Assembly: GCA_005883365.1 (NCBI GenBank)
Contig: VAXA01000034.1
Location: 1 to 16,242, forward strand
Length of the DNA stretch: 16,242 nucleotides
Source: Actinomycetota bacterium
GTDB lineage: Bacteria; Actinomycetota; Thermoleophilia; Gaiellales; Gaiellaceae
Direction: 5' to 3'
In this document: in pieces, positions 3,266 to 15,512 of the stretch
How positions within the stretch are numbered: the first letter of the stretch is position 1
Layout: the number at the start of each line of letters is the position of its first letter
Notes under the pieces: model-generated
The model's input: only the letters and a program-made list of their open reading frames with translations
Database searches by the model: none
What the model was told of the DNA's origin: nothing
Program-made: the position numbers and the translations under genes

Positions 3266-3916
3266 CTACTGGTTCTCGAGCAGCTCGTCCTCCGCGACGG
3301 GCCGGAGCACGCGCGCGGGGTTGCCGACGACGAGCATCCGCGGCTCGATGTCCTTCGTCACGACCGCTCCCGCCCCGACGAACGCGTCCTCGCCGATCTC
3401 GACTCCCGGGAGGAGGATCGCGCCGCCGCCGATCCGCGCCCCCCGACGGATGGTCGGCCCCTTGATCAGCTCGTGCCGCCGCTCGGTGCGGCTCATGAAG
3501 TTGTCGTTCGTCGTCACGACGCGCGGGGCGAGGAACACGTGTTCCTCGAGCGTCGAGTAGGCCGTGATGTACGCGTCGGCCTGGATCTTCGTCATCGCCC
3601 CGATCGTCGTGTCGTTCTCCACGAGCGACCCGCGGCCGATCACGACGTCGTCGCCCACGATCACCCTTTCCCGCACGCAGGACTGGTCGCCGAGGATCAC
3701 GCGCGCGCCGATCTTGGCGCCTGCGAAGACGATCGCGCCGGTGGAGACGATCGTCCCGTCGCCGATCTCCGCCGGCGGCAGATCGTCTCGTTTCGCCGTC
3801 GAACGGGCCGAGAGCGAGGGCTGCTTGCCCACGACCGCGTGCTCGAGCACCTTCACGCCCTCGCCGAGCACCGTTCCCGGATAGACGATCGCGGTCGGAT
3901 GGATCTCCGCGCTCAT
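3266..3916 (-). CDS. wbpD: WbpD-like UDP-sugar N-acetyltransferase (left-handed beta-helix)
   Basis: A 216-aa hexapeptide-repeat acyltransferase. It begins MSAEIHPTAIVYPGTVLGEG and continues in repeated [LIV]Gxxxx units (IGDGTIVSTGAIVFAGAKIG, then VIVGDDVVIGRG), the left-handed beta-helix fold. It carries TTNDNFMSRTE and ends VVGNPARVLRPV, as in WbpD/WlbB enzymes. These use acetyl-CoA to acetylate the 3-amino group of UDP-2-acetamido-3-amino-2,3-dideoxy-glucuronate. The ATG at 3916 has a GGAG sequence 5 nt upstream and begins exactly where family similarity begins; the upstream GTG at 4024 falls inside a palindromic repeat and is rejected. It is the last gene of a four-gene minus-strand operon, but is separated from the third gene by about 150 nt holding that repeat. 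The exact sugar acceptor is inferred from the neighbours. Confidence 0.85.
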   Translation of the reverse strand: MSAEIHPTAIVYPGTVLGEGVKVLEHAVVGKQPSLSARSTAKRDDLPPAEIGDGTIVSTGAIVFAGAKIGARVILGDQSCVRERVIVGDDVVIGRGSLVENDTTIGAMTKIQADAYITAYSTLEEHVFLAPRVVTTNDNFMSRTERRHELIKGPTIRRGARIGGGAILLPGVEIGEDAFVGAGAVVTKDIEPRMLVVGNPARVLRPVAEDELLENQ

Positions 3917-3933
3917 CGGTGCTCCGCCGCCCT

Positions 3934-4056
3934 CCGACCGCGGGGAGGGGGTGTGGGGGAACCGGGAGGTTCCCCCACAGACGACGAAGAAGGGGGCGCG
4001 TGGGGGAAACATGGTTTCCCCCACGGGAGCAAGGCGAAGCCGAGCGACGCGGTCGG
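3934..4056. repeat. Composite palindromic intergenic element (REP/BIME- or MITE-like)
   Basis: A 123-bp unit between the stop of the 3-dehydrogenase gene and the start of the acetyltransferase gene. The ends are a 9-bp inverted pair, CCGACCGCG (3934-3942) and CGCGGTCGG (4048-4056). Inside are two near-identical strong hairpins. The first is TGTGGGGGAACC (3952-3963) with its perfect complement (3968-3979) and a GGGA loop. The second is CGTGGGGGAAAC (3999-4010) with its complement (4014-4025) and an ATG loop. Both share the GTGGGGGAA/TTCCCCCAC core, so they look like tandem copies of one unit. No transposase gene or clear target-site duplication is visible. The hairpins may reduce read-through or protect the upstream mRNA. 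Calling it a dispersed repeat needs copies elsewhere in the genome. Confidence 0.6.
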
Positions 4057-4069
4057 GTGGACCTCAGGC

Positions 4070-5053
4070 TCAGTCACTGCGCAAGCTCGCCGTCAGGAGC
4101 TCGAGCGCGCGCACGACCTCGAGTCCGTCCCGCATCTCGCGGCCGTCCCAGCCCTCCTGCACGAGCCGCACGAAGTGCTGGCACTCGAGCTTGAGCGGCT
4201 CGGCGTTCGATAGCTTGGGGCTGAAGATGTCGCCCGACCGTGTTCGCCACTCGCCGTAGTTGTCGGCGGGCTGCTCGGGGGCCTTGTCGTAGACCGTGAT
4301 CTTGCGGTCGAGCTCCATGTCGTCGAAGACCGCCATCTTGTCCCGCCCCACGACCGTGAGACGCCGCATCTTGTGCGGGTCGAGCCACGACAGGTGCATG
4401 TGCGCGATCTTCCCGGACGGGAAGCGCAGGTAGCAGAAGACGACGTCCTCGACTCCCTCGGTGAGGAAGGCGTGGCCGTGTGCGGCCGCCTCGGCGATCT
4501 CCTCCCCGATCAGGTACAGGATCACCGAGAGATCGTGGACGCCGAGCGACCAGAGCGCGTTCTCGTCCTTGCGGATCTTGCCGAGGTTCTGCCGGTTGCC
4601 GTACACCACGAGCACCTCGCCGAGGTCTCCGTCGTCGACGAGCTCCTTCATCTTCTGCACGGCCGGGTGGTAGAGCAGGAGGTGACCGGGCATGAGGACG
4701 AGCCCTCGCGCCTCGGCGAGGGCGATCAGCTCCTCCATCTCCGCGACCCGCATCGCCGGCGGCTTTTCGACGAATACGTGCAGGCCCGCCTCGAGCGACG
4801 CCCGCGCGAGGGGGTAGTGCGTCGGCACTGGCGTCGCGATGACGACGGCGTCGACGTCGTCCGCGGCGAGCAGCTCTTCGAAGTCCCCGGTGATCTGCGC
4901 GTTTGGATGGCGGTTCGCGAACTCCGTTCGCAGCGCCTCGCTCGTGTCGCAGAGCCAGGTGAGGTCGGCGACGTCGTCGAAGACGCGCGCGAGGTTCCGG
5001 CCCCAGTAGCCGAGCCCGACCTGGCCCACCCTGAGCTGCGCCTCAGAGCTCAT
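4070..5053 (-). CDS. wbpB: Gfo/Idh/MocA oxidoreductase, WbpB/WlbA-like UDP-sugar 3-dehydrogenase
   Basis: A 327-aa NAD(P)-dependent sugar oxidoreductase. The N-terminal Rossmann segment reads RVGQVGLGYWGRNLARVF (residues about 8-25). It is followed by DVDAVVIATPVPTHYPLA and the family hallmark HVFVEKPPAM, whose Lys is the usual catalytic/nicotinamide residue. The C-terminal half has WSLGVHDLSVILYL, whose His is also conserved in the family. In the WbpB/WlbA branch the enzyme oxidises C3 of UDP-N-acetylglucosaminuronate, ready for transamination. The ATG at 5053 overlaps the stop of the preceding dehydrogenase gene as ATGA, so the two should be translationally coupled. Family membership is secure; the exact substrate is inferred from the adjoining epimerase, 6-dehydrogenase and acetyltransferase. 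Confidence 0.88.
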   Translation of the reverse strand: MSSEAQLRVGQVGLGYWGRNLARVFDDVADLTWLCDTSEALRTEFANRHPNAQITGDFEELLAADDVDAVVIATPVPTHYPLARASLEAGLHVFVEKPPAMRVAEMEELIALAEARGLVLMPGHLLLYHPAVQKMKELVDDGDLGEVLVVYGNRQNLGKIRKDENALWSLGVHDLSVILYLIGEEIAEAAAHGHAFLTEGVEDVVFCYLRFPSGKIAHMHLSWLDPHKMRRLTVVGRDKMAVFDDMELDRKITVYDKAPEQPADNYGEWRTRSGDIFSPKLSNAEPLKLECQHFVRLVQEGWDGREMRDGLEVVRALELLTASLRSD

Positions 5054-6333
5054 AACTTGTAGACGTGCTCCGCGGCGGTGCCTTTCGCCCCGGTCGCGTT
5101 GCGAAGGTCGACGACGAGCGGCGCCTCGTCCACGAGCTGCTCGTAGTCGAGCGATGAGTGGTCGGTGACGATGACGACGCAGTCGTAGTTTCTTGGCTCG
5201 TAGGAGACCGCTGAAAGCTCGAGGCCCTGCTCGTGGATGTGCGGCGCGTGCGGGTCGTGGTACGAGACCTCGGCACCCGCGTTCTGCAGCAGCGAGATGA
5301 TCTTCAGCGCCGGCGACTCGCGCAGGTCGCCGATGTCCGGCTTGTACGCGACGCCGAGGACGAGGATCCGCGAGCCCTTCATCGCCTTCTGCGCATGGTG
5401 GTTGAGCGCCTGCGAGACGAGCGACCGGCAGAAGTACGGCATCTCCTCGTTCACCTTGCCGGCGAGCTCGATGAACTCCGTATAGAAGCCGAACTCGCGC
5501 GCCTTCCACGACAGGTAGAAGGGGTCGACCGGGATGCAGTGGCCGCCGAGGCCCGGGCCCGGGCTGAAGCGCATGTACCCGAAGGGCTTCGTCGCGGCCG
5601 CGTCGACGACCTCCCAGATGTCGATCCCCATGCGGTCGCAGAGGACGGCGAGCTCGTTGACGAGGGCGATGTTGACCGAGCGGAAGATGTTCTCCAGCAG
5701 CTTCGTCAGCTCAGCCGCCTCGGGGCTCGAGAGCTCGTGCACCGTGTCGATCGCCTGCCGGTAGACGGCGGCGGCCCGGCGGGTGCACTCGGCCGTGATG
5801 CCGCCGAGGACCTTCGGAGTCGTCTTCGTCGTCCAGTCCTCGCGGCCCGGGTCGACCCGCTCCGGCGACATGGCGAGGAAGAAGCCCTCGCCGGCGCGCA
5901 GGCCGCTCCCTTCCTCGAGGATCGGCTGGAGCAGCTCGCGCGTCGTGCCCGGCCACGTCGTCGACTCGAGCACGACGACCTGGCCTTCGCGCAGCACCTC
6001 GGCGAGGCGGCGCGCGGCGCTCTCGACTATCGAGAGGTCGGGCTCGCGCTGCTGCGAGAGCGGCGTGGGCAGCGCGATGAGGACGGCCTCGGCGTCGCGC
6101 AGCTCCTCGTAGCTCGTCGTCGCATGGATCAGGCCGCGCTCGACGAGATGCGCCAGCTGCTCGCTCGAGACGTCGACGATGTGCGACTCGCCGTGGTTGA
6201 CTGCCGCGACGACGTCCTCGAGCACGTCGACGAGGAGGACGCGGCGGCCGGCCTCGGCGAACGTGGCCGCGAGAGGCACGCCGACATAGCCGGCGCCGAC
6301 CACGGCGACGTCGTAGGAGGCGCCCTCAGCCAT
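5050..6333 (-). CDS. wbpA: UDP-N-acetyl-sugar 6-dehydrogenase (WbpA-like)
   Basis: A 427-aa nucleotide-sugar dehydrogenase that oxidises C6 of UDP-GlcNAc (or a related UDP-HexNAc) to the uronate with two NAD+. It begins MAEGASYDVAVVGAGYVGVP with a GxGxxG dinucleotide-binding loop at residues 13-18. The catalytic cysteine is Cys266 in PGLGGHCIPVDPFYLSWKA. The C-terminal UDP-binding domain contains SRILVLGVAYKPDIGDLRES. The ATG at 6333 is preferred because the epimerase reading frame ends at 6326, giving an 8-nt overlap; the in-frame start at 6381 would add 16 non-family residues inside the epimerase gene. The next gene overlaps it by 4 nt. WbpA and WecC are hard to separate by motif; the neighbours favour the WbpA role. 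Confidence 0.9.
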   Translation of the reverse strand: MAEGASYDVAVVGAGYVGVPLAATFAEAGRRVLLVDVLEDVVAAVNHGESHIVDVSSEQLAHLVERGLIHATTSYEELRDAEAVLIALPTPLSQQREPDLSIVESAARRLAEVLREGQVVVLESTTWPGTTRELLQPILEEGSGLRAGEGFFLAMSPERVDPGREDWTTKTTPKVLGGITAECTRRAAAVYRQAIDTVHELSSPEAAELTKLLENIFRSVNIALVNELAVLCDRMGIDIWEVVDAAATKPFGYMRFSPGPGLGGHCIPVDPFYLSWKAREFGFYTEFIELAGKVNEEMPYFCRSLVSQALNHHAQKAMKGSRILVLGVAYKPDIGDLRESPALKIISLLQNAGAEVSYHDPHAPHIHEQGLELSAVSYEPRNYDCVVIVTDHSSLDYEQLVDEAPLVVDLRNATGAKGTAAEHVYKL

Positions 6334-7360
6334 GCGCGGCAAGGCTAGCGGCGACCCGTTCCGCCGCGTGCCCGTCTCCATACAGCGCCGGCCGCTCCTC
6401 GGGCATGCGCGCCGACGCGACCGCGGCGGCGAGCTGCTGCGGGTCGTCGTCGACGAGGACGTTCGCGCCCAGCTCGACCGTGTCCACCCACTCCGTCGAG
6501 GGCCGCGCGGTCACGCAGGGAACGCCGTACCAGTACGCCTCCTTCTGCAGGCCGCCCGAGTCGGTGACGAGGACGCGCGCCTGGGAGACGAGCGCCGCCA
6601 TGTCGAGGTAGCCGACGGGCGCGATCACCTCGACGTTCGGCGGCGTCTCGCCGAGCACGGCGCGCGTGCGCGGATGCGCGGGGAAGATGACGCACTCGCC
6701 GGTCCGGCTGAGGCCGTCGACGATGCGGGCGAGCCGCTCGGGCTCGACGTTCGCCTGCCGGTGGATCGTCGCGACGAGGTAGCCGCCCGGCTCGAGGCCG
6801 TGCTCGGCGAGGATCCGGGACCGCTCACGCGCGATCGGGGCGAGCTGGAAGCAGCCGTCCGCCATCACGTCGCCGACGACGTCGATGCGTCCGGGAACGC
6901 CTTCGACGAGCAGCGTGTCGCGCGAGCGCTGGTCGGGACAGAGGAGGAGCGCGGCCATGGCGTCGACCGCGATCCGGTTGTGTTCCTCGGGCATCGACAG
7001 GTCGCCGCTCCGCAGGCCGGCTTCCACGTGGGCCACGGGCACGCCGGCGTCGCCGGCCGCCTCGGCGCCCGCGAGCGTCGAGTTCGTGTCGCCGTAGACG
7101 AGCGTCCAGTCGGGCCGCTCTTGCGTGAGCGCGGCGGCGATCGACGGCCGCATCGTCTCGGAGTCGGCGGTGTGGAGGTCGAGCCGATGGCGCGGCTCGG
7201 GCAGCCCGAGCTCCTCGTAGAAGACGTCGGAGAGCTCGGGATCCCAGTGCTGGCCGGTGTGAACGCCGACCTCCTCGATGCCCGCCGCACGCAACGCGGC
7301 GCTGACGGGACCGGACTTAATGAACTGCGGGCGGTTGCCGACGACGGACAGGACCTTCAC
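6326..7360 (-). CDS. wbpI: UDP-GlcNAc-type 2-epimerase (WbpI-like)
   Basis: A 344-aa non-hydrolysing UDP-sugar 2-epimerase (GT-B fold). It starts MKVLSVVGNRPQFIK; RPQFIK is typical of the WbpI/WlbD branch acting on UDP-2,3-diacetamido-glucuronate, while WecB enzymes usually read TRPEAIK. Other family blocks are VYGDTNSTLAGA, HVEAGLRSGDLSMPEEHNR, VATIHRQANV and VTDSGGLQKEAYWYGVPC. The start is a GTG at 7360, directly before the first beta strand, with no obvious Shine-Dalgarno sequence. It is the first gene of the minus-strand nucleotide-sugar operon and diverges from the tRNA-Lys gene only 29 nt away, so both promoters lie in or next to that gap. The branch assignment is from motif memory, not a phylogeny. 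Confidence 0.88.
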   Translation of the reverse strand: MKVLSVVGNRPQFIKSGPVSAALRAAGIEEVGVHTGQHWDPELSDVFYEELGLPEPRHRLDLHTADSETMRPSIAAALTQERPDWTLVYGDTNSTLAGAEAAGDAGVPVAHVEAGLRSGDLSMPEEHNRIAVDAMAALLLCPDQRSRDTLLVEGVPGRIDVVGDVMADGCFQLAPIARERSRILAEHGLEPGGYLVATIHRQANVEPERLARIVDGLSRTGECVIFPAHPRTRAVLGETPPNVEVIAPVGYLDMAALVSQARVLVTDSGGLQKEAYWYGVPCVTARPSTEWVDTVELGANVLVDDDPQQLAAAVASARMPEERPALYGDGHAAERVAASLAAHG

Positions 7361-7486: not shown

Positions 7487-10450
7487 CTACGAAGCGGAAG
7501 TCGCGCGCAGGCTGTCGAGCCGTCCGCGCACTCTCGCCGCCTGCGCAAGGCTCTCCTTCTGCTCGAAGCGGACGAGCGCCTGCTCGAGCGCTTCGGCCGC
7601 TTCCTCGAGCTTGCCCTCGAGCTCCAGCACCTCGGCGAGGTCGGCGTACGCGAGCGCGAGGAAATGGAGCATGTCCGTCAGCTCGCCAACGGCGAGCGCC
7701 TCCCGCGCGAGCCGCTCGGCTTCGCCGCCTGCGCCGCGACGCGCCAGCACCTTCGCCTGCACCTGGCGCCAGAGCATCTGCCCCAGCACGTCGTCGCTCG
7801 CGGCGAGCTCGCGGGATCGGTCGGCCCAGGTCTCGGCCTCGTCCAGCTCGCCGAGCCCGTAGTAGGCCTGCCCCAGTAACGCCGACGCGCCGGACAGATA
7901 GCTTCGTTCCCCGAGCTCATCGTAGAGGCGGCAGCCCTCGAGGCCGAAGCGCACAGCCGCCGCGTAGTCGCCGGCCCCGAGCTCCAGAAGGACGCTCTCG
8001 AAGCCGAGCGTCCCGGCCAGGTCGATGCTGCGGCCGCGCTCGGCCTGCGCCGCGCGGTGCTCAGCGAGGATCGCGCGTGCCTCCTCGAAGCGGCCAAGCA
8101 TCCCGAGCGCCTCTACCCGGACCTCGGGCATCGGCTCCGCCGCTCCGCCGGGCTCCTGTTCGTCGATCCACGCGAGAAGCTCGCTCACCGGCATGGGGCC
8201 TGCGAGGCGGCTCCTCGCGCGGGCCATCAAGAGTTTGTACGGGAGCCCTGCCAGCGCGGCGTGGCTTGCGGCGCGCTCGTGCGCCTCGGCCTTTGCGTCC
8301 ATTCGCGCGCGCGTGTTGGCGGCGTGAGCACGCGCCTCGTACGCGACGTAGAGCGCCACATGATCGCCGGCGTCCCCGAACAGCGGCAGTGCTTCCTCGA
8401 TCGTCGACTCGAGCCGCTCTGTCGCCCCCTCGGGGTCGAACTGGATCTGCAGCCAGCCCTGGCGGATCCGGCCGCAGAGCTCCGCGACCCGGTCGTCCTG
8501 CGCGGCGCCGCGTTGGGCGAGCTCGGCTGCTCGACTTAGTGCTTCCTCGCCTTCGCCGGCGTGGAACAGCGAGTCGCTCAACTCGACCTCGAGGGAGAGG
8601 TCGATCTCGTTCGCAGGCGTGAGAGCGGCTGCACGACGGAAAAAGCTCGCGGCTGCATGGTGGTCGGTGCGCAAGGCGGCGCGCCTGGCGGCGGCTGTCA
8701 AGCGGCTGCGAGCCGCCTTCCGCAGCTCACCGGCGATGGGCAGTCGCAGCTGTTCCCGATAGCGACAGGCCTGCTCGAGGTGATGGCCCAGGATCTCGTC
8801 GAGCTCGACGAGTTCGGTGGCCCGCTCCTCGAGCCAGTGCGCGAACCGCTGGTGCAGCTCGGCCCTCACCGACTTCGGGAGGGCGTCATACGCGGTGTCC
8901 CTGATCAGGAGGTGCCGGAAGCGAAAGGCGTCGTCCCCCGGCAGCAGCGTCCGAGTGGGCCGGATCAGCTCCCGGCGGACGAGCGCGGCGAGCCTCGGGC
9001 TGACGTGTGCTTCCTCGGGGTCGAGCGCCTGCACGGCACCGCGGTGGAAGATCTCGCCTTCCACCGCGCCCCGCTCCAACACCCGCCGCTCGGTGCGGGC
9101 GAGCTGGTCGAGCCGGGTCTCGAGAAGTGCCCGCAGGGTCGGGGGCACGTCCACCTCGCCGTTCTCCGCCGTCATCGCGAGCATCTCCGTCAGGAAGAGC
9201 GGATTGCCGCCGGCCGCCTGTGCCACCCGGCGGCGGAACTCGGGCGGAAGCTCGTCGCCGATCAGGACGTCCACCTGGTCCGCGGGCAGCGGCTCGAGCC
9301 GCAGAGGGACCGGCCACTCGCCGCGTCTCGTGAGCAGGTCGGGCCGGCTCGTGCAGAGGAGCAGGATCGGCCCGCCCGACGAGAGGAGGCCGGCGGCCTC
9401 GACGAGGTCGAGGAACGTGTCCGCGCCCCAATGGATGTCGTCGAACACGCAGATGATCGGGGCCTGCTCGAGGAGGAGCTTGCGGAACGCCCAGGCGATC
9501 TCCTCGGCGCTCGTGGCGACCGTCGGCTCGCCGACGAGGGACCGGAGCGCCGCGGCGGCGACCGGATCGGACGGCAGGGCGTCGAGTTGCCGCAGGACTT
9601 CCGTCACCGCCCAGTAGGTGATGCCCGCGCCGTAGGGGAGGCAGCGGCCGCGGACCAGGCGGGCGTCGATTCCCGCCAGAGCCTCGCGAAGGAGCCGCGA
9701 CTTGCCGATCCCCGCGTCGCCGATGATTGTGACGAGCTCGCACCGTTTCTCGTCCCGCGCCCGCGCCCAGGCCTGCCGCACCAGCTCGAGCTCGTTCTGC
9801 CGGCCGACGAAGGGCAGCCGATGACTTCGCTCCGGGACGTCGAGAACCGACCGGAGCCGGTAGGCGGGCACGCGCTCCGCCTTGCCCTTGAGCTCGAGAG
9901 GCTCGACGGCATCCACCTCGACGCCGCCGCGCACGATCCGGAACGTGGGCTCGCCGATCAGGATCTCGCCGGATCCTGCCGCCTGCTCGAGCCTGGCGGC
10001 GACGTTGACCGCGTCTCCCGTCGCGAGGCGCTCCTCGGTGCCGGTCACGACCTCGCCGGTGTTGACGCCGAGGCGTCCCTGAACGCCGAGATCCGGGAAC
10101 GCTTCCCGCATCTCGACCGCGGCCCGGCAGGCGCGCAGCGCGTCGTCCTCGTGCACGCGGGGGACGCCGAAGACGGCCATCACCGCGTCGCCGATGAACT
10201 TCTCCACGCTGCCGCCGTGCGACTCGACGATCCCCTTCATGCGCTCGAAGTAGTTCGCCAGCAGCACCCGCACCGTCTCGGGATCGGTCGACTCGCCGAG
10301 CTCGGTCGAGCCGACGAGGTCGCAGAAGAGCACGGTGACGGTCTTGCGCTGCTCGCCGGAGGCCGACAGCGGGGCCAGCGGGGCGCCGCACTCCTCGCAG
10401 AAGTTGGCCCGTTCGCTGTTCTGGTGCCCGCAGCTCGTGCAGGTGGTCAC
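7487..10450 (-). CDS. Zinc-ribbon / class III nucleotidyl cyclase / AAA ATPase / TPR regulator
   Basis: A 987-aa soluble signalling protein. The N-terminus has a zinc ribbon (Cys4, Cys7, Cys18, Cys21). A class III cyclase domain spans about 38-200: VLFCDLVGST with Asp44, FIGDAVMAVFGVP with Asp88 (both metal ligands), and GDAVNVAARLE with Asn149 and Arg153 of the transition-state pair, so it looks catalytically competent. An AAA/STAND-type ATPase follows, with FVGRQNELE, Walker A GDAGIGKS (244-251) and Walker B IICVFDDIHW (332-341). The C-terminal third is alpha-helical with TPR-like repeats, for example AGDYAAAVRFGLEGCRLYDE. No DNA-binding domain is seen. The GTG at 10450 directly precedes the ribbon; a TAGCCT -10 box 7 nt upstream suggests a leaderless mRNA. 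It diverges from the borosin precursor gene. Whether it makes cAMP or cGMP, or acts mainly as a sensor ATPase, cannot be read from sequence. Confidence 0.9.
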   Translation of the reverse strand: MTTCTSCGHQNSERANFCEECGAPLAPLSASGEQRKTVTVLFCDLVGSTELGESTDPETVRVLLANYFERMKGIVESHGGSVEKFIGDAVMAVFGVPRVHEDDALRACRAAVEMREAFPDLGVQGRLGVNTGEVVTGTEERLATGDAVNVAARLEQAAGSGEILIGEPTFRIVRGGVEVDAVEPLELKGKAERVPAYRLRSVLDVPERSHRLPFVGRQNELELVRQAWARARDEKRCELVTIIGDAGIGKSRLLREALAGIDARLVRGRCLPYGAGITYWAVTEVLRQLDALPSDPVAAAALRSLVGEPTVATSAEEIAWAFRKLLLEQAPIICVFDDIHWGADTFLDLVEAAGLLSSGGPILLLCTSRPDLLTRRGEWPVPLRLEPLPADQVDVLIGDELPPEFRRRVAQAAGGNPLFLTEMLAMTAENGEVDVPPTLRALLETRLDQLARTERRVLERGAVEGEIFHRGAVQALDPEEAHVSPRLAALVRRELIRPTRTLLPGDDAFRFRHLLIRDTAYDALPKSVRAELHQRFAHWLEERATELVELDEILGHHLEQACRYREQLRLPIAGELRKAARSRLTAAARRAALRTDHHAAASFFRRAAALTPANEIDLSLEVELSDSLFHAGEGEEALSRAAELAQRGAAQDDRVAELCGRIRQGWLQIQFDPEGATERLESTIEEALPLFGDAGDHVALYVAYEARAHAANTRARMDAKAEAHERAASHAALAGLPYKLLMARARSRLAGPMPVSELLAWIDEQEPGGAAEPMPEVRVEALGMLGRFEEARAILAEHRAAQAERGRSIDLAGTLGFESVLLELGAGDYAAAVRFGLEGCRLYDELGERSYLSGASALLGQAYYGLGELDEAETWADRSRELAASDDVLGQMLWRQVQAKVLARRGAGGEAERLAREALAVGELTDMLHFLALAYADLAEVLELEGKLEEAAEALEQALVRFEQKESLAQAARVRGRLDSLRATSAS

Positions 10451-10457
10451 CCGCCAG

Positions 10458-10463
10458 AGGCTA
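10458..10463 (-). promoter_or_regulatory. Likely -10 box for the cyclase/ATPase gene (leaderless)
   Basis: The minus strand reads TAGCCT, then 7 nt, then the GTG start, so the transcript probably starts at or within a base or two of the start codon. No Shine-Dalgarno sequence is present. The -35 region is weak. Confidence 0.45.
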
Positions 10464-10515
10464 AAGCCCGAGGCGCGCGGTGGATAGGGGCTGGGCTGGG
10501 ACAGCGGTCGCCCCA

Positions 10516-10545
10516 TTGACTTCCGCGTCCCGCGCGGCTTAGGCT
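10516..10545 (+). promoter_or_regulatory. Promoter of the borosin precursor gene (leaderless)
   Basis: TTGACT (10516-10521), an 18-nt spacer, then TAGGCT (10540-10545) form a good actinobacterial SigA-type promoter. The ATG follows 7 nt after the -10 box, so transcription should start at or next to the A of the start codon. There is no Shine-Dalgarno sequence, in agreement with a leaderless mRNA. Confidence 0.65.
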
Positions 10546-10552
10546 CCTGGCG

Positions 10553-10894
10553 ATGACTGAGACGGCACAGAAGCCCGGTCTGACCGAGTTCTTCCTCCGC
10601 CTCGGCGAGGACCGCAGCCTGCTGACGGAGTTCGAGCGTGACCCGCGCCGCGCGCTGGTCGACGCCGGGCTCGCAGGCGATCAAGTCGAGACCGTGCTCG
10701 AGGGAGGCTACGCGGATGTCCGCCTCGCCCTCGAAGCCGAGCTCGTCCACGATCCGGTCTGGCGCCACGTTCTCACCCCGACGCGGATGACGAAGCCCAC
10801 CTCGGTGCCTCCGAACGGGGATGACGACGAGGAGGGCGGCGGGGACAAGGACGGCGGCAAGGGCGGCGGCAAGCCGCCGCGGCGCGGCGCCTGA
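10553..10894 (+). CDS. Putative split-borosin precursor peptide
   Basis: A 113-aa small protein next to a borosin-type N-methyltransferase. Residues about 8-62 (PGLTEFFLRLGEDRSLLTEF, then RDPRRALVDAGLAGDQVETV and LEGGYADVRLAL) form a compact helical domain. It has the look of the borosin-binding domain of precursors such as Shewanella SonA: L-x-x-F-x-x-x-L-x-x-D, a short linker, then 'AGL...V..VL.GD'-type helices (related to the LigA/Nif11-like helical fold). The following stretch, about 63-89 (ELVHDPVWRHVLTPTRMT and on to VPPN), is the likely core to be methylated. The last 25 residues are Gly/Asp/Lys-rich and disordered. It has its own leaderless promoter. The TGA stop overlaps the CTG codon proposed to start the methyltransferase. 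An alternative is a small helical partner protein that is not a substrate. Confidence 0.75.
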   Translation: MTETAQKPGLTEFFLRLGEDRSLLTEFERDPRRALVDAGLAGDQVETVLEGGYADVRLALEAELVHDPVWRHVLTPTRMTKPTSVPPNGDDDEEGGGDKDGGKGGGKPPRRGA

Positions 10895-11664
10895 GCGGCC
10901 CGACTGGGGGCACGGACGCGGCTGACCCGCCGGAGCACGGCGCAACCGGCGCGCTGACGGTCGTCGGCACGGGGATCGACGTCACGACGCAGTTGACGCC
11001 TGGTGCGCAGGCGGCGATCGAGGCCGCGGACGAGGTGATGTACATCGTCGCCGATCCGGTCGCAGCGCTTCGGATCGAGGCGCTGAACCCGAATGCCCGC
11101 TCGCTCGACTCCCTGTACGGGGCCGGCAAGGACCGGCACGGGACGTATGACGAGATGGCCGAAGCCTTCCTGGAGCCCGCGCGAAAGGGCCTCCGCTCGT
11201 GCGCCGTCCTCTACGGCCATCCCGGCGTCTTCGGGCTTCCCGCTCACGTCGCTGTCCAGCGAGCCCGAGCCGAGGGCATCTCGGCCCGGATGTTGCCGGC
11301 GGTCTCGGCGCTGGACTGCCTCTTCGCAGATCTCGGCATCGATCCGGGAAGCACCGGCCTGCACTGCTACGAGGCGACGCACTTCCAGCGCCGCCGGCCC
11401 GCGATCGACGTAGACGCGACCCTGGTCTTGCTGCAGCCCGGCATGATCGGCGAGCTCGGCGGCGAGCCGACTCCCGCCGTGGCCGGGCGGTTCCGTCAAC
11501 TCGTCGAGCAGCTGAGCGATGTGTACAGCGAGGCGCGCGAGGCCGTGCTCTACACGGCATCGCCGTATCCCGCCGCCAGGCCCGCAGTGCTCCGCTTCCC
11601 GCTCGGAGCGCCCGAGCCGCCGACCCCGGATCTCGCCGCAACGCTCTGCATCCCCGGGAGCTGA
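10891..11664 (+). CDS. Borosin-type peptide backbone alpha-N-methyltransferase
   Basis: A 257-aa SAM-dependent enzyme of the tetrapyrrole-methylase fold. In borosins this fold methylates backbone amides of a precursor peptide. Family blocks: ALTVVGTGIDVTTQLTPGAQ (residues 21-40), DEVMYIVADP (47-56), LNPNARSLDSLY (65-76), GKDRHGTYDEM (79-89), CAVLYGHPGVFGLPAH (104-119), then ARMLPAVSALDCLFADLGID and YEATHF. Tyr76, Arg82 and Tyr86 have the same spacing as Tyr66, Arg72 and Tyr76 of OphMA as I recall them. The first ATG/GTG/TTG in frame is the TTG at 10993, which would delete the conserved VGTGI loop. CTG at 10891 overlaps the precursor stop as CTGA, the usual coupled-gene geometry, and codon use is GC3-rich from there on, so I place the start there. 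No core is fused to it, which makes it a split system. Confidence 0.83.
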   Translation: MSGPTGGTDAADPPEHGATGALTVVGTGIDVTTQLTPGAQAAIEAADEVMYIVADPVAALRIEALNPNARSLDSLYGAGKDRHGTYDEMAEAFLEPARKGLRSCAVLYGHPGVFGLPAHVAVQRARAEGISARMLPAVSALDCLFADLGIDPGSTGLHCYEATHFQRRRPAIDVDATLVLLQPGMIGELGGEPTPAVAGRFRQLVEQLSDVYSEAREAVLYTASPYPAARPAVLRFPLGAPEPPTPDLAATLCIPGS

Positions 11665-11732
11665 CGCGCCGGGACGAGGGCTGGCCTTTCGCACCCGGAT
11701 AGTGCAGACTGCGACGAGGAGCGAAGCGCGGA

Positions 11733-14700
11733 CTGGGGGGCAGAGAGACGGCCAGGGGCACAGAGCCGCTCGCGACAACGCCTGAGACCATCGACGACGC
11801 CGTCCGCCGGCTCGTCGTCGAGCGCTCGCACGATCTCGTCACGCTCTGCGACCCAGCCGGCGCGATCGTCTACGCGTCGCCGTCCTGGGCGAACATCGGC
11901 TGGGAGCCGGCTGCGCTCGCCGGGGTCGAGATGCTCGAGCTGATCCACCCCGACGACGCCCGCAAGGCCACGGAGGCGTGGTTCGAGGTTGCCGCCGGAA
12001 CCGACGTGGACGCCGTCACGGTCCGGCTGCGCCGTGGCGACGGAGGCTTTGCATGGTTCGAGGTGAACGGCTCCTCGGTCCGCGACGAGGAAGGGGAGAT
12101 CCGCTTCATGCTCGGGACGGCGCGCGACGTCAGCGAGCGCGAGGAGCTGCGCTGGCGGCTGCGCGACCTCGACGCCGTCTACCGCTTCGCCGACGCCGTT
12201 GCGGGCGCCGGCATGCTCGAGGAGGTGCTCGAGGCGGCGCTCGACGCGCTGCTCGAGGCCACCGGCGCCGACCGGGCCTCCGTCCTGCTCGCCGACGACG
12301 ACGGTGTGCTCAGGTTCCGCGCCTGGCGCGGCCTCTCCGACCGCTACCGCGCCTTCACCGAGGGGCACTCGCCGTGGCCGCCGGACGCCGACGACCCGCA
12401 GCCGGTTCTCGTCGAGGATGTCGCCGGCGCCGGGTTCGAGCCGGCGCTCGAGCGCGTCGTGCGGAAGGAGGGCATCGGGGCGCTCGCGTTCGTGCCGCTT
12501 GTCCGCGGCGGCCGCCTGCTCGGGAAGTTCATGCTCTACCGGGACGCGCCGCATCGCTGGAGCGATCGCGAAGTCCTCCTCTCGCGAACGATCGCGAACC
12601 ACCTCGCCTCCGTCACCGAGCGGACGGACGCCCAGCAGGCCCTGCACGAGTCGAGCGAGCAGCTCGCGAACATCCTGCGAACTGTCGAGGAGGGCATCAC
12701 GGCGACCAACCACGAAGGCCGTTTCCTGTTCGCGAACGACGCCGCGGCGCGCGTGGCGGGGCTCGATTCCGGTGACGAGCTCGTCGCGCTCTCTCCTGGC
12801 GAGCGCGCTGCGCTCTACGAGGTGTTCGACGGCGACGGGGTTCGGCTGGCCCACGAGGACCTGCCTCCCTCGAAAGCGCTGGCCGGCACGGAGAGCTCGG
12901 CCGTCGTCCGCATCCGCCCCCACTCCGCGGACTGGGAGCACTGGGTCGCGCTCAGGTCGATGCCGGTCTTTGCCGCCGACGGGACCGTCGACCTCGTCGT
13001 CAACGTCACGCGCGACATCACGCAGGAGACGGTCGCGGCGCAGCGCGAGGCGGAGGCGCGGCTCGAGGCGGAGGCGTCACGGGCGCGGCTCGCGCTGCTG
13101 CTCGAGGCGACGGAGCAGCTGAGCCAGACCCTCGACTACGAGGAGCTGCTACGGCGGGTACCGCAGCTCGTCGTCCCGCGCATCGCCGACGGCTGCCACG
13201 TCTACATCGCGCGCAACGAGGAGACCGAGCTCGTCCGCGTCGCGCACGCGCACGTGGAACCGCGCATCTCCAAGCTGCTCGACACCATCGACGCGGTCTA
13301 CGACGTCTCGCGACACCGGCGTATCCCGGTCGTCGAGGTCTTCCGCACCGGCAAGCCGATCCACCACGCGGCGCTGCTGCGACCGCTGCAGAAGGTCGCG
13401 CGGCCCGGAGAGGAGGAGCTAGTGCGCATGGAGTCGCGTTCGCTCATCGTCGTCCCACTCGAGAGGGGCGGCAAGCGGCTCGGCGTTCTCGCGGTGACCG
13501 CGACCGAGCCCGGCCACCTCGGCGACGAGGACTTCGAGCTCGTGTCGGAGCTCGCACGCCGCGTCTCTCTCGCGCTCGACCTCGTCGGCCTCCACCGCCG
13601 CGCGCAGGATTCGCTCGCGCAGCTGCAGGCGGTGATCGCGCAGCTCCCGCTCGGTGTCGCGATCACCGACGCCGAACATCGTGTCGTCGTCCGCAACGAC
13701 GAGCTCGAGCGCATCTGGGGAGCTCCGGTCTCCGCCGGCGCCGACCACCGCAAGAGCGGCATCGACACCGTCGGCTGGCCGCTCGAGCGTGCGATCGAGA
13801 CCGGCGAGGTGACGATCGGCGAGCGGCGGGACCTCGAGCGGGACGGTGAGTTGCGCACCCTCGAGATCAGCGCTGCGCCCGTGCGCGACGCCGACGGTGC
13901 GATCGTCTCCGCCGTCGCGATCGTCGCCGACGTCACTCGCCGCAGCCGCTCGGAGGACAACCTCCGTTTCCTCGCCCGTGCGAACGAGTTGCTCGTCGCA
14001 AGCCTCGACTGGGCGCGGACGCTCGCCGCGATCGCGGATCTCGCGGTGCCGGCGCTCGCCGGCTATCTCGTGATCGACCTGCTCGACGAGGAGGAGGACG
14101 AGCTGCACTGGGTCGTCGCAGTCCACGCGGATCCGGAGAAGACCGAGCTGGTCCGGGAGCTGCGCGGACGCTACCCGCCGACGCTGCCGACCCACCCCAT
14201 CCAGGTCGCCCTTCGGACCGGCGAGCCGCAGCTGCTGCCGGACCTCCAGGCGGAGACCGCCGCGATGGCGCACGACACCAAGCACGCCCGGGCGATCCGG
14301 CGGATCGCGAACACCTCCGGCATCGTCGCGCCGCTCATCGCGCGAGGGCGAACGCTCGGCACGATCAGCCTCGGAACCATCGAAGGGCAGCCGCGCTTCG
14401 ACGAGTCCGACCTCGCGATGGCGACCGAGCTCGCGCGGCGGATCTCGCTCGCGCTCGACAACGCCCGCCTCTTCGCCGAGGCGCAGGAGCGGGCGCACGC
14501 GGCGGAGGCGCTCGAATACGTCGACGACGGCGTCATCCTCGTCGACCAGGGCGGCGTCGTTCGCCTCTGGAACCCGACTGCCGCCATCAGCCTACGGCGG
14601 CCCGCCGAGGACGCCGTCGGCCGGCCGATCGCCGAGCTGCTGGGAGGCTGGGCCTCGCTCCAGTCCCGCATCCCCGTCGCCTCCGAGCACCAGGCGGGCG

Positions 14701-15512
14701 GAGGCTCGCGCGCGCAGACGCTCCCCGTGGAGGTGCAGGGGGAGGAGCGGTGGCTGTCGATCTCGGCCGTCCGTTTCCCGGGCGGCACCGTGTACGCCTT
14801 CCGCGACGTCACCGACGAGCGCGCCGTCGAGCAGATGAAGACGGACTTCGTGTCCACCGTCTCGCACGAGCTGCGAACTCCGCTCGCGGCGATCTACGGC
14901 GCTGCGATGACTCTCCGGCGGCGGGACGTCGCGGTCGAAGAGTCGCAGCGCGAGAGGCTGCTCGAGGTCGTTTCGAGCGAAGCCGACCGTCTCGCCCGGA
15001 TCGTGAACGACATCCTCTGGGCCAGCCGCCTCGAGTCGGGCCGGATGAGCATCGCGATCGAGCGCTGCGACGCGGTGGCGATCGCGACCGAGGTGATGGA
15101 CGTGCTCCGCTCGCGGGCGCCCGAGGGAATCGAAGTCGCCGTCCGGAAGTCGCGAGGCCTGCCGCCCGTCGCCGCCGACCCCGACAAGCTTCGCCAGATC
15201 CTCACGAATCTGATCGACAACGCAATCAAGTACTCGCCCGACGGTGGGCGCGTCGGGGTCGAGATCGGCCGCAGCGGCGGGCGCGTCCGGTTCCGCGTCA
15301 GCGACGAGGGGCTCGGCGTGCCGCCCGCCGAGCAGGATCGGATCTTCGAGAAGTTCTTCCGGCTCGACCCGAACCTGACGCGCGGCGTCGGCGGCACGGG
15401 GCTCGGCCTCTACATCTCCCGCGAGCTTGTGACGAGGATGAACGGCCGGATCTGGGTCGACTCCGACGGCCGCAGCGGCTCGTCGTTCTTCCTCGAGCTT
15501 CCTGTCGCCTGA
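11733..15512 (+). CDS. Large soluble multi-PAS/GAF sensor histidine kinase
   Basis: About 1259 aa with no transmembrane segment. Order, approximate residues: PAS1 30-135, GAF1 146-296, PAS2 305-430, GAF2 456-623, PAS3 628-738, GAF3 750-920, PAS4 923-1035, HisKA about 1035-1100, HATPase_c 1133-1259. The H box is MKTDFVSTVSHELRTPLAA with phospho-acceptor His1045. The N box NLIDNAIKYSPDG, G1 DEGLGVP, F box FEKFFRLD and G2 GGTGLGLYISRE are intact, so it should be active. The first ATG in frame (11931) would cut PAS1 in half: SHDLVTLCDPAGAIVYASPS upstream of it is clearly PAS sequence. No ATG, GTG or TTG lies between the in-frame stop at 11700 and 11931. I propose CTG at 11733, with GAGGAG 11 nt upstream; a one-base error in the six-G run at 11735-11740, joining the GTG at 11702, is the alternative. 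No response regulator is adjacent. Confidence 0.88.
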   Translation: MGGRETARGTEPLATTPETIDDAVRRLVVERSHDLVTLCDPAGAIVYASPSWANIGWEPAALAGVEMLELIHPDDARKATEAWFEVAAGTDVDAVTVRLRRGDGGFAWFEVNGSSVRDEEGEIRFMLGTARDVSEREELRWRLRDLDAVYRFADAVAGAGMLEEVLEAALDALLEATGADRASVLLADDDGVLRFRAWRGLSDRYRAFTEGHSPWPPDADDPQPVLVEDVAGAGFEPALERVVRKEGIGALAFVPLVRGGRLLGKFMLYRDAPHRWSDREVLLSRTIANHLASVTERTDAQQALHESSEQLANILRTVEEGITATNHEGRFLFANDAAARVAGLDSGDELVALSPGERAALYEVFDGDGVRLAHEDLPPSKALAGTESSAVVRIRPHSADWEHWVALRSMPVFAADGTVDLVVNVTRDITQETVAAQREAEARLEAEASRARLALLLEATEQLSQTLDYEELLRRVPQLVVPRIADGCHVYIARNEETELVRVAHAHVEPRISKLLDTIDAVYDVSRHRRIPVVEVFRTGKPIHHAALLRPLQKVARPGEEELVRMESRSLIVVPLERGGKRLGVLAVTATEPGHLGDEDFELVSELARRVSLALDLVGLHRRAQDSLAQLQAVIAQLPLGVAITDAEHRVVVRNDELERIWGAPVSAGADHRKSGIDTVGWPLERAIETGEVTIGERRDLERDGELRTLEISAAPVRDADGAIVSAVAIVADVTRRSRSEDNLRFLARANELLVASLDWARTLAAIADLAVPALAGYLVIDLLDEEEDELHWVVAVHADPEKTELVRELRGRYPPTLPTHPIQVALRTGEPQLLPDLQAETAAMAHDTKHARAIRRIANTSGIVAPLIARGRTLGTISLGTIEGQPRFDESDLAMATELARRISLALDNARLFAEAQERAHAAEALEYVDDGVILVDQGGVVRLWNPTAAISLRRPAEDAVGRPIAELLGGWASLQSRIPVASEHQAGGGSRAQTLPVEVQGEERWLSISAVRFPGGTVYAFRDVTDERAVEQMKTDFVSTVSHELRTPLAAIYGAAMTLRRRDVAVEESQRERLLEVVSSEADRLARIVNDILWASRLESGRMSIAIERCDAVAIATEVMDVLRSRAPEGIEVAVRKSRGLPPVAADPDKLRQILTNLIDNAIKYSPDGGRVGVEIGRSGGRVRFRVSDEGLGVPPAEQDRIFEKFFRLDPNLTRGVGGTGLGLYISRELVTRMNGRIWVDSDGRSGSSFFLELPVA

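Follow-up and report, generated by a model that had tools for sequence, protein, structure and literature searches.

A split borosin gene pair with signal-transduction genes as neighbours in a Thermoleophilia genome

The analysed stretch of DNA, 16,242 nucleotides long and hereafter called the window, comes from a Thermoleophilia MAG of 2.1 Mb in 310 contigs (G000), and at 10553..11664 of its plus strand we confirmed a split borosin gene pair, in which a small precursor open reading frame is followed by a TP-methylase frame. A first-pass annotation had claimed such a locus from the letters alone, and the claim was borne out: the enzyme groups with OphMA and SonM, the precursor is SonA-like, and the two genes are separate and adjoining. 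With a methyltransferase of the expected family, its catalytic residues and a separate gene for a precursor with a borosin-binding domain (BBD), the pair falls among the split borosins, being type IV-like and corresponding to class 3 as set out in the accessible part of PMC11395268. Both protein families, the conserved catalytic residues, a probable core and a neighbourhood that is not random can be read directly from the DNA. From this we infer, with a probability of roughly 0.6, a split borosin coupled to signalling, a reading in which the methylation, the exact residues that would receive it, the CTG start of the enzyme and the kind of signalling link, with the direction in which it runs, are our interpretation. 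The features of the window are as follows.

7487-10450, minus strand: class III nucleotidyl cyclase-AAA_16-TPR protein (Guanylate_cyc 1.6e-21, AAA_16 1.1e-17, TPR_12 2.5e-4; GTG start at 10450)
10553-10894, plus strand: split borosin precursor, 113 aa (ATG start, stop TGA at 10892-10894; match to SonA, 24 relatives)
10574-10738, plus strand: BBD of the precursor, residues 8-62 (SonA alignment, predicted helices)
10739-10798, plus strand: probable core, residues 63-82, ELVHDPVWRHVLTPTRMTKP (conservation; position matches the methylated L63/I65 of SonA; putatively methylated)
10799-10891, plus strand: Asp/Gly/Pro/Lys-rich variable follower, residues 83-113 (0 of 31 columns invariant)
10891-11664, plus strand: borosin alpha-N-methyltransferase, 257 aa if CTG 10891 starts it (alternative CTG 10954)
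11116-11214, plus strand: active-site residues Y76, R82, Y86 and Y108 of the enzyme, aligning to SonM Y58, R67, Y71 and Y93
11703-15512, plus strand: PAS/GAF sensor histidine kinase frame, immediately following the methyltransferase (Pfam GAF, PAS, HisKA, HATPase_c)

The methyltransferase and its precursor

The enzyme matched the Pfam family PF00590 (TP_methylase) with an E value of 5.5e-18, and the 25 solved sequences that it matched at E<=0.001 were all borosin enzymes, with dbOphMA at 7.9e-44, OphMA at about 1e-42, SonM at 4.1e-41 and MroMA at 1.2e-30; 324 homologues were found at E<=1e-20, with relatives at 75-98% identity among the database matches. A structural model of the enzyme (22 sequences, pLDDT 82.9) agreed, as the best 50 Foldseek matches listed were all OphMA, SonM or MroMA. 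The first-pass annotation had assigned the borosin methyltransferase family from short sequence blocks, every one of which was found in the enzyme frame, and the solved relatives and Foldseek uphold that assignment. It had also suggested that both proteins be searched by profile and by structure, and had named a grouping with cobalamin-pathway or RsmI-type enzymes as grounds for giving up the idea; in these searches the enzyme fell with OphMA and SonM, and the precursor led to SonA by a sequence match and by weak Foldseek matches. The membership of the enzyme and of the precursor in their families is as good as a sequence allows, and the enzyme very probably methylates the backbone of a peptide.

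The closest solved relatives of the enzyme domain are the fungal OphMA and dbOphMA of types I-III (E 8e-44 to 3e-41), in which, however, enzyme and core are one protein, whereas the window has two genes. The pair is also like the type IV system SonM/SonA of Shewanella oneidensis where, in the accessible part of PMC8429565, separate genes for the enzyme and for a BBD-core precursor lie side by side. According to the same part of that paper, mutation of SonM Y58, R67, Y71 or Y93 slows or nearly kills the enzyme; all four residues, in a SonM numbering counted along an alignment, are kept in the window enzyme, and the BBD was matched as well. The window differs from SonM/SonA in that the precursor comes first, in a polar and conserved core followed by an acidic tail, in a divergent cyclase-AAA_16-TPR partner, and in an enzyme without a standard start codon.

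Residues 8-57 of the precursor align to SonA 9-58 (E 8.1e-5), and helices were predicted at 8-19, 21-29, 31-37, 42-50 and 52-65. The model of the precursor has low confidence (pLDDT 60.8, with blocks of 60-84 over residues 11-70 and below 50 beyond), and in a Foldseek search with it the first 18 of 28 matches were SonA chains at weak E values of 0.15-1.7, no match being found at E 0.001. When the window sequence was aligned with 24 relatives (25 precursors in all), the majority-residue fraction was 0.81 in the BBD, 0.91 in residues 63-82 and 0.47 in residues 83-113, a tail that differs in length and letters and is rich in D (27%), G (20%) and P (18%). The earlier description of a short helical domain plus a variable tail was thus right for the helical BBD but only half right for the tail, since conservation peaks in residues 63-82 and residues 83-113 alone vary; the zone 63-89 that had been proposed for methylation falls on the conserved segment. 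In SonA the methylated residues are L63 and I65 (accessible part of PMC8429565), just behind the BBD, which makes residues 63-82 the natural core here. This segment is polar and Pro-rich and not primarily hydrophobic, as the cores of the tested split borosins are in the part of PMC11285071 at hand, a description of tested examples and not a definition of the family; for KchMA, an enzyme of type III, methylation of some Asp residues is reported (PMC11395268, in part). Among the relatives in the order, other cores have a hydrophobic end (L009-L011), GEHTGDDD repeats (L013) or PPADE repeats (L110). For the window, the conserved core provides one defined peptide as a search target.

Two observations concern precursors more generally. 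The N-terminus of the window precursor weakly matches the NCBIfam model IniB_NTERM (E 3.1e-5, under the cut-off), and mycobacterial IniB, which also has a Gly-rich tail, may have the same fold as the BBD. A locus in the Myxococcales (L041, 5072-6001) encodes a 309-aa precursor with a BBD and many VVYAAG-type repeats, beside a kinase-FGE-sulfatase protein, and is possibly a multi-core borosin precursor.

The distribution of the enzyme is patchy: by profile search, at the thresholds used, it was found in 10 of the 129 genomes of the order (11 loci) and in 11 of 399 genomes sampled from the class. The precursor profile was positive in 7 of the 129, all within the ten enzyme genomes and at the same loci, and it missed the precursors of the other three and of the C300 locus. 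In searches of relatives, family, order and class no other genome exceeded 57% identity; the more distant enzyme relatives P0085 and P0097 are Gaiellaceae. The C300 locus (L111, G000:C300) is a second, different split borosin enzyme in the window's own genome, on the minus strand of its contig, preceded by a 91-aa small ORF that the precursor profile does not match; upstream there is an SRP-receptor-like gene (by eye), and an AAA_16-TPR gene overlaps the enzyme convergently and is cut by the contig end. In the window itself, upstream at 3266-7360, polysaccharide-type genes are found (hexapeptide transferase, Gfo/Idh/MocA oxidoreductase, UDP-sugar dehydrogenase, UDP-GlcNAc 2-epimerase). A promoter and terminator scan of 10380-11800 found nothing and was uninformative.

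Signalling genes around the borosin loci

The gene divergent from the precursor, with 102 bp between the proposed starts, encodes the cyclase-AAA_16-TPR protein, and the histidine kinase frame behind the enzyme is a possible second signalling neighbour of the pair. The first-pass annotation had seen no adjacent protease or transporter, and in a Pfam scan of the gene neighbours none was indeed recognised adjoining the pair; but the neighbours are informative, being the cyclase gene and the PAS/GAF histidine kinase. A cyclase-AAA_16-TPR gene adjoins all 11 borosin loci of the order. It is divergent in the window, whereas the remaining ten loci have it convergent at the enzyme 3' end; two of these ten are truncated by a contig end, and the gap measures -77 to +3 bp in nine and +225 bp in one. 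Because of this difference in orientation, the window's own signalling link is a matter of adjacency alone.

A single inherited cyclase partner was considered and rejected, as the adjacent cyclases are scattered among paralogues and do not form one clade: in a tree of the 11 adjacent and 20 non-adjacent paralogues, adjacency required 8 changes (at least 5 forced), against a mean of 9.1 in shuffles, of which 136 out of 500 were as low. The neighbourhood was therefore re-made, or the partner exchanged, repeatedly. Around the 20 non-adjacent cyclase loci, where gene calls were read by eye, neighbours were varied and unrelated-looking, with no shared neighbour apparent. A locus from another order of Thermoleophilia (G289/L162) has precursor and enzyme, but within about 9 kb nothing matches a cyclase, AAA or TPR domain.

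To look beyond the order, a profile search of GTDB contigs was used, which found 378 borosin loci; the 80 nearest to the window enzyme, not a random sample, were kept. A signal-transduction protein stands in the cluster in 60 of these 80 (gene calls, profiles for the BBD and for cyclase, AAA and TPR domains, and Pfam), six of the 60 belonging to the window's order; the tally was made by eye on scripted gene calls, with a criterion that took shape along the way; for L009-L012, L016 and L043 the count relies on our own profiles or on resemblance to a neighbour tested by Pfam. The loosest counted case is L061, which is convergent with one gene between. Four loci of the 80 have a divergent histidine kinase (L047, L053, L058, L072), six are cut by contig ends (L024, L026, L027, L033, L042, L057), and ten show no signal gene (L014, L017, L025, L039, L049, L070, L071, L075, L079, L083). 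Of these ten, three are on short or truncated contigs (L014, L071, L083), and the verdict comes from visual inspection, and not from a full Pfam scan, for L039 and for the flanks of L017 and L083.

The outputs of the partners vary (cyclase, Ser/Thr kinase, histidine kinase, GGDEF, LuxR, SARP, TIR) and often come with TPRs. The partner is a cyclase-TPR protein in Thermoplasmata, an AAA_16-TPR protein in Methanomassiliicoccus, a kinase with TPR and AAA_16 in Gemmatimonadota and with TPR and AAA_22 in Corallococcus, a kinase-AAA_16 protein in 16 cyanobacteria and Sorangium (whose gene, where loci were read gene by gene, stands behind enzyme, TPR gene and BBD gene), AAA_16-LuxR in Eremiobacterota, SARP-AAA_16-TPR in Chloroflexi, TPR-histidine kinase-receiver in Alteromonas and Paraglaciecola, GGDEF with no TPR or AAA match in Dyella and Steroidobacteraceae, GGDEF with TPR in Ferrimonas, kinase-TPR in Acidobacteria, TIR-TPR in Lysobacterales and kinase-WD40 in one planctomycete. 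On a tree of the enzymes, from which L024 was left out as too short and whose bootstrap had not settled, the AAA/cyclase partner label, covering solely the partners seen by our own AAA and cyclase profiles, took 12 changes (at least 8 forced) against 28.5 when shuffled; being so far below the shuffled value, the label follows lineages, yet with gains or losses on several occasions.

In the family of Ferrimonas (G411), which we take to be the Shewanellaceae of GTDB, the enzyme was found in 43 of 58 sampled genomes. A GGDEF protein adjoins it in each of the 17 loci read, 16 of them chosen from the family's enzyme places and the other being a second G411 locus (L185), and in most of these the GGDEF gene belongs to a single same-strand run that includes precursor and enzyme. 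Our own profiles recognised a BBD ORF in 14 of the 17, and Pfam confirmed GGDEF in all three loci tested, with weak TPR matches in two. One locus, L187, has a near-SonA precursor, an enzyme beginning like SonM and a GGDEF gene beside the pair, so that SonM/SonA-like loci likewise have a signal gene next to them.

Part of this link is already in print, since the legend of a borosin-type scheme in the accessible part of PMC11395268 lists a GGDEF domain. At the first description of split borosins, as far as the available text of PMC8429565 goes, no pathway was tied to a final product. Among CC-licensed papers, we found none on a borosin with an adenylate cyclase, and the titles and abstract openings listed mention no cyclase, kinase or TPR protein as a borosin partner; the conflict systems of Kaur et al. 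(PMC7159879), in the part of the article at hand, include no methylase, RiPP or borosin. What is new here is the cyclase-AAA_16-TPR adjacency of the order's borosin loci and the presence of a signal protein in 60 of the 80 nearest loci.

The precursor-enzyme pair stays constant beside sensor-like proteins (TPR, AAA_16/STAND, propellers) with changing outputs, and from this context we infer a signalling purpose; the occurrence of the pair beside signal proteins in many bacteria and archaea points to a putative peptide-signalling role. In the mechanism that we propose, the precursor would dock on the methyltransferase dimer via its helical BBD, the segment of about residues 63-82 would be threaded through the active site, where its backbone amides would be N-methylated by SAM, as SonM does to SonA, and the acidic tail would serve as a follower that aids solubility. 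Once methylated, the peptide, either released or still on its BBD, would be the input of the neighbouring intracellular signal protein, or be controlled by it; in the window this partner would most likely be the cyclase-AAA_16-TPR protein, with the TPR/STAND part as sensor and the cyclase as output. MalT-type STAND regulators and RRNPP receptors are peptide-sensing TPR/STAND regulators, and the window partner, with AAA_16, TPR and an exchangeable output, may be analogous to them; to our knowledge, no such regulator is paired with a borosin. If the signalling reading is true, backbone N-methylation would be a signalling modification, and the repeated linkage to signal proteins allows a concrete and cheap test of purpose, namely whether the methylated precursor binds or switches the neighbouring sensor. 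A wider proposal, possible but rather doubtful, is that signalling, and not secretion as antibiotics, is the main use of split borosins in prokaryotes: in bacteria and archaea, precursor, backbone N-methyltransferase and a TPR/STAND-type sensor with a lineage-exchanged output would form a module of three parts, the protease-resistant methylated peptide being the internal ligand that sets the sensor.

A conventional RiPP pathway, with a secreted N-methylated peptide and a signal protein that is merely the pathway-specific regulator of the operon, would yield part of the same picture. The partners in Chloroflexi and Eremiobacterota have DNA-binding outputs (BTAD and GerE), like cluster regulators, and may be just that, and in one cyanobacterial locus a PatG-type protease lies beside the pair. 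Most of the 60 partners, however, have second-messenger or kinase outputs, the window pair has no recognised transporter or protease next to it, and the shared strand run of GGDEF gene, precursor and enzyme in the Ferrimonas family argues in the same direction; we regard the conventional pathway as unlikely, though it is the alternative that survives best.

It is improbable, instead, that a split borosin merely happens to have signalling neighbours because such genes are common in these genomes. They are common, with 7-40 cyclase-domain matches per genome (and elsewhere 21-132 AAA_16 matches, in 12 genomes), and the window orientation is unlike that of the other ten order loci; but with these 7-40 PF00211 matches, a density of one gene per kb and two neighbours per locus, chance would place a cyclase gene next to 0.18 of 11 loci, against 11 seen, and neither the tally over the 80 nearest loci, with only six of its positives in the order, nor the GGDEF gene at every Ferrimonas-family locus fits with chance neighbours. 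As a control, 58 distal genes were taken, one per locus where available and each at a distance of over 2.5 kb from the enzyme. Among these, HATPase_c, Sigma54_activat, FHA, PAS_4, CHAT and TPR_12 occurred in two each and nSTAND1 and CHASE2 in one, and kinase, cyclase, GGDEF and AAA_16 were absent among the control families with at least two members (best 25 of 102 families). A few control genes thus also carry signal-type domains, at most about a dozen of the 58 (overlaps among domains uncounted) versus 60 of the 80 clusters, a comparison that is inexact, as a cluster offers the best of several neighbours and the control one gene per locus.

Some loci among the 80 show arrangements of their own. 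In Oscillatoria princeps (L070) a PatG-type subtilase of the cyanobactin macrocyclase family (3381-5534) lies right before the BBD (5540-5719), with the enzyme from 5998, and it looks as if this borosin were cut out and perhaps cyclised. Two acidobacterial loci (L014, 3224-4183; L025, 5078-6037) have a fused BBD-methyltransferase of 319 aa between further methyltransferase genes, and no signal gene was seen there. In Sorangium (L018, 6095-11986) two apparent pairs of a TPR gene and a small BBD-like gene stand in tandem before the kinase-AAA_16 gene, with a short kinase-like remnant in between, which suggests duplicated modules.

The start of the methyltransferase gene

No start codon had been proposed for the methyltransferase by the first-pass annotation. 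The first ATG, GTG or TTG in the enzyme frame is TTG 10993, which lies behind the VVGTGI SAM loop (from 10960) and therefore cannot be the start. CTG 10891 overlaps the precursor stop as CTGA, and CTG 10954 lies two codons ahead of the SAM loop; the enzyme likely starts at a CTG, and for the window CTG initiation with coupled translation seems to us the simplest reading. When start codons were counted in 88 rows, 10 without a recognised motif being set aside, 7 of the remaining 78 had no standard start before the SAM loop. As L102 and L103 repeat L009 and L010, these are five distinct loci, all in the order (window, L009, L010, L011, L110), and no row outside the order with a recognised motif was without a standard start. 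A CTG is found at or near the junction in four of the five, overlapping the precursor TGA also in L102 (= L009), and L110 has only ATT; further loci of the order have GTG. The odd start codon accompanies truncated gene calls among the 14 nearest database relatives (P0002-P0015), 7 of which have their annotated start beyond the SAM loop. In 6 of the 14 (P0002, P0003, P0005, P0007, P0008, P0009) the start was called at or before the first strand, and the peculiarity is therefore not universal in the clade.

The missing standard start in five loci, together with an enzyme frame that is open into the precursor tail, would also be expected if the methyltransferase were made only as a precursor-enzyme fusion via ribosomal frameshifting, in a type 0-like manner. 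A single ORF of this type is also seen in the metagenomic protein P0090 (398 aa), which runs from a BBD through an EHAPPEHTPG repeat into a methyltransferase; its repeat is later read in another frame, however, and P0090 could be a true fusion or the product of an indel or sequencing error. The window does not have the one ORF of a type 0 fused borosin, as the stop TGA 10892 and a frame change separate the two genes. The frame relation between enzyme and precursor varies among loci, which makes fusion by frameshift less likely, no slippery heptamer was seen by eye at the junction, and the CTG and GTG codons described above also speak against it; we consider such a fusion very improbable. It is hardly credible that the locus holds a methylase of the cobalamin pathway or of the RsmI or YabN type beside an unrelated small gene: the enzyme shares the TP_methylase fold with these families, but the cobalamin-type and YabN models of NCBIfam stay far under their cut-offs (the best, YabN, with 41 versus 525 bits), the solved relatives are borosin enzymes, and the precursor matches SonA.

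At 11703-11930 of the window, the histidine kinase frame has no ATG, GTG or TTG ahead of its PAS domain, and CTG codons are found there; CTG starts may be more widely used in this lineage.
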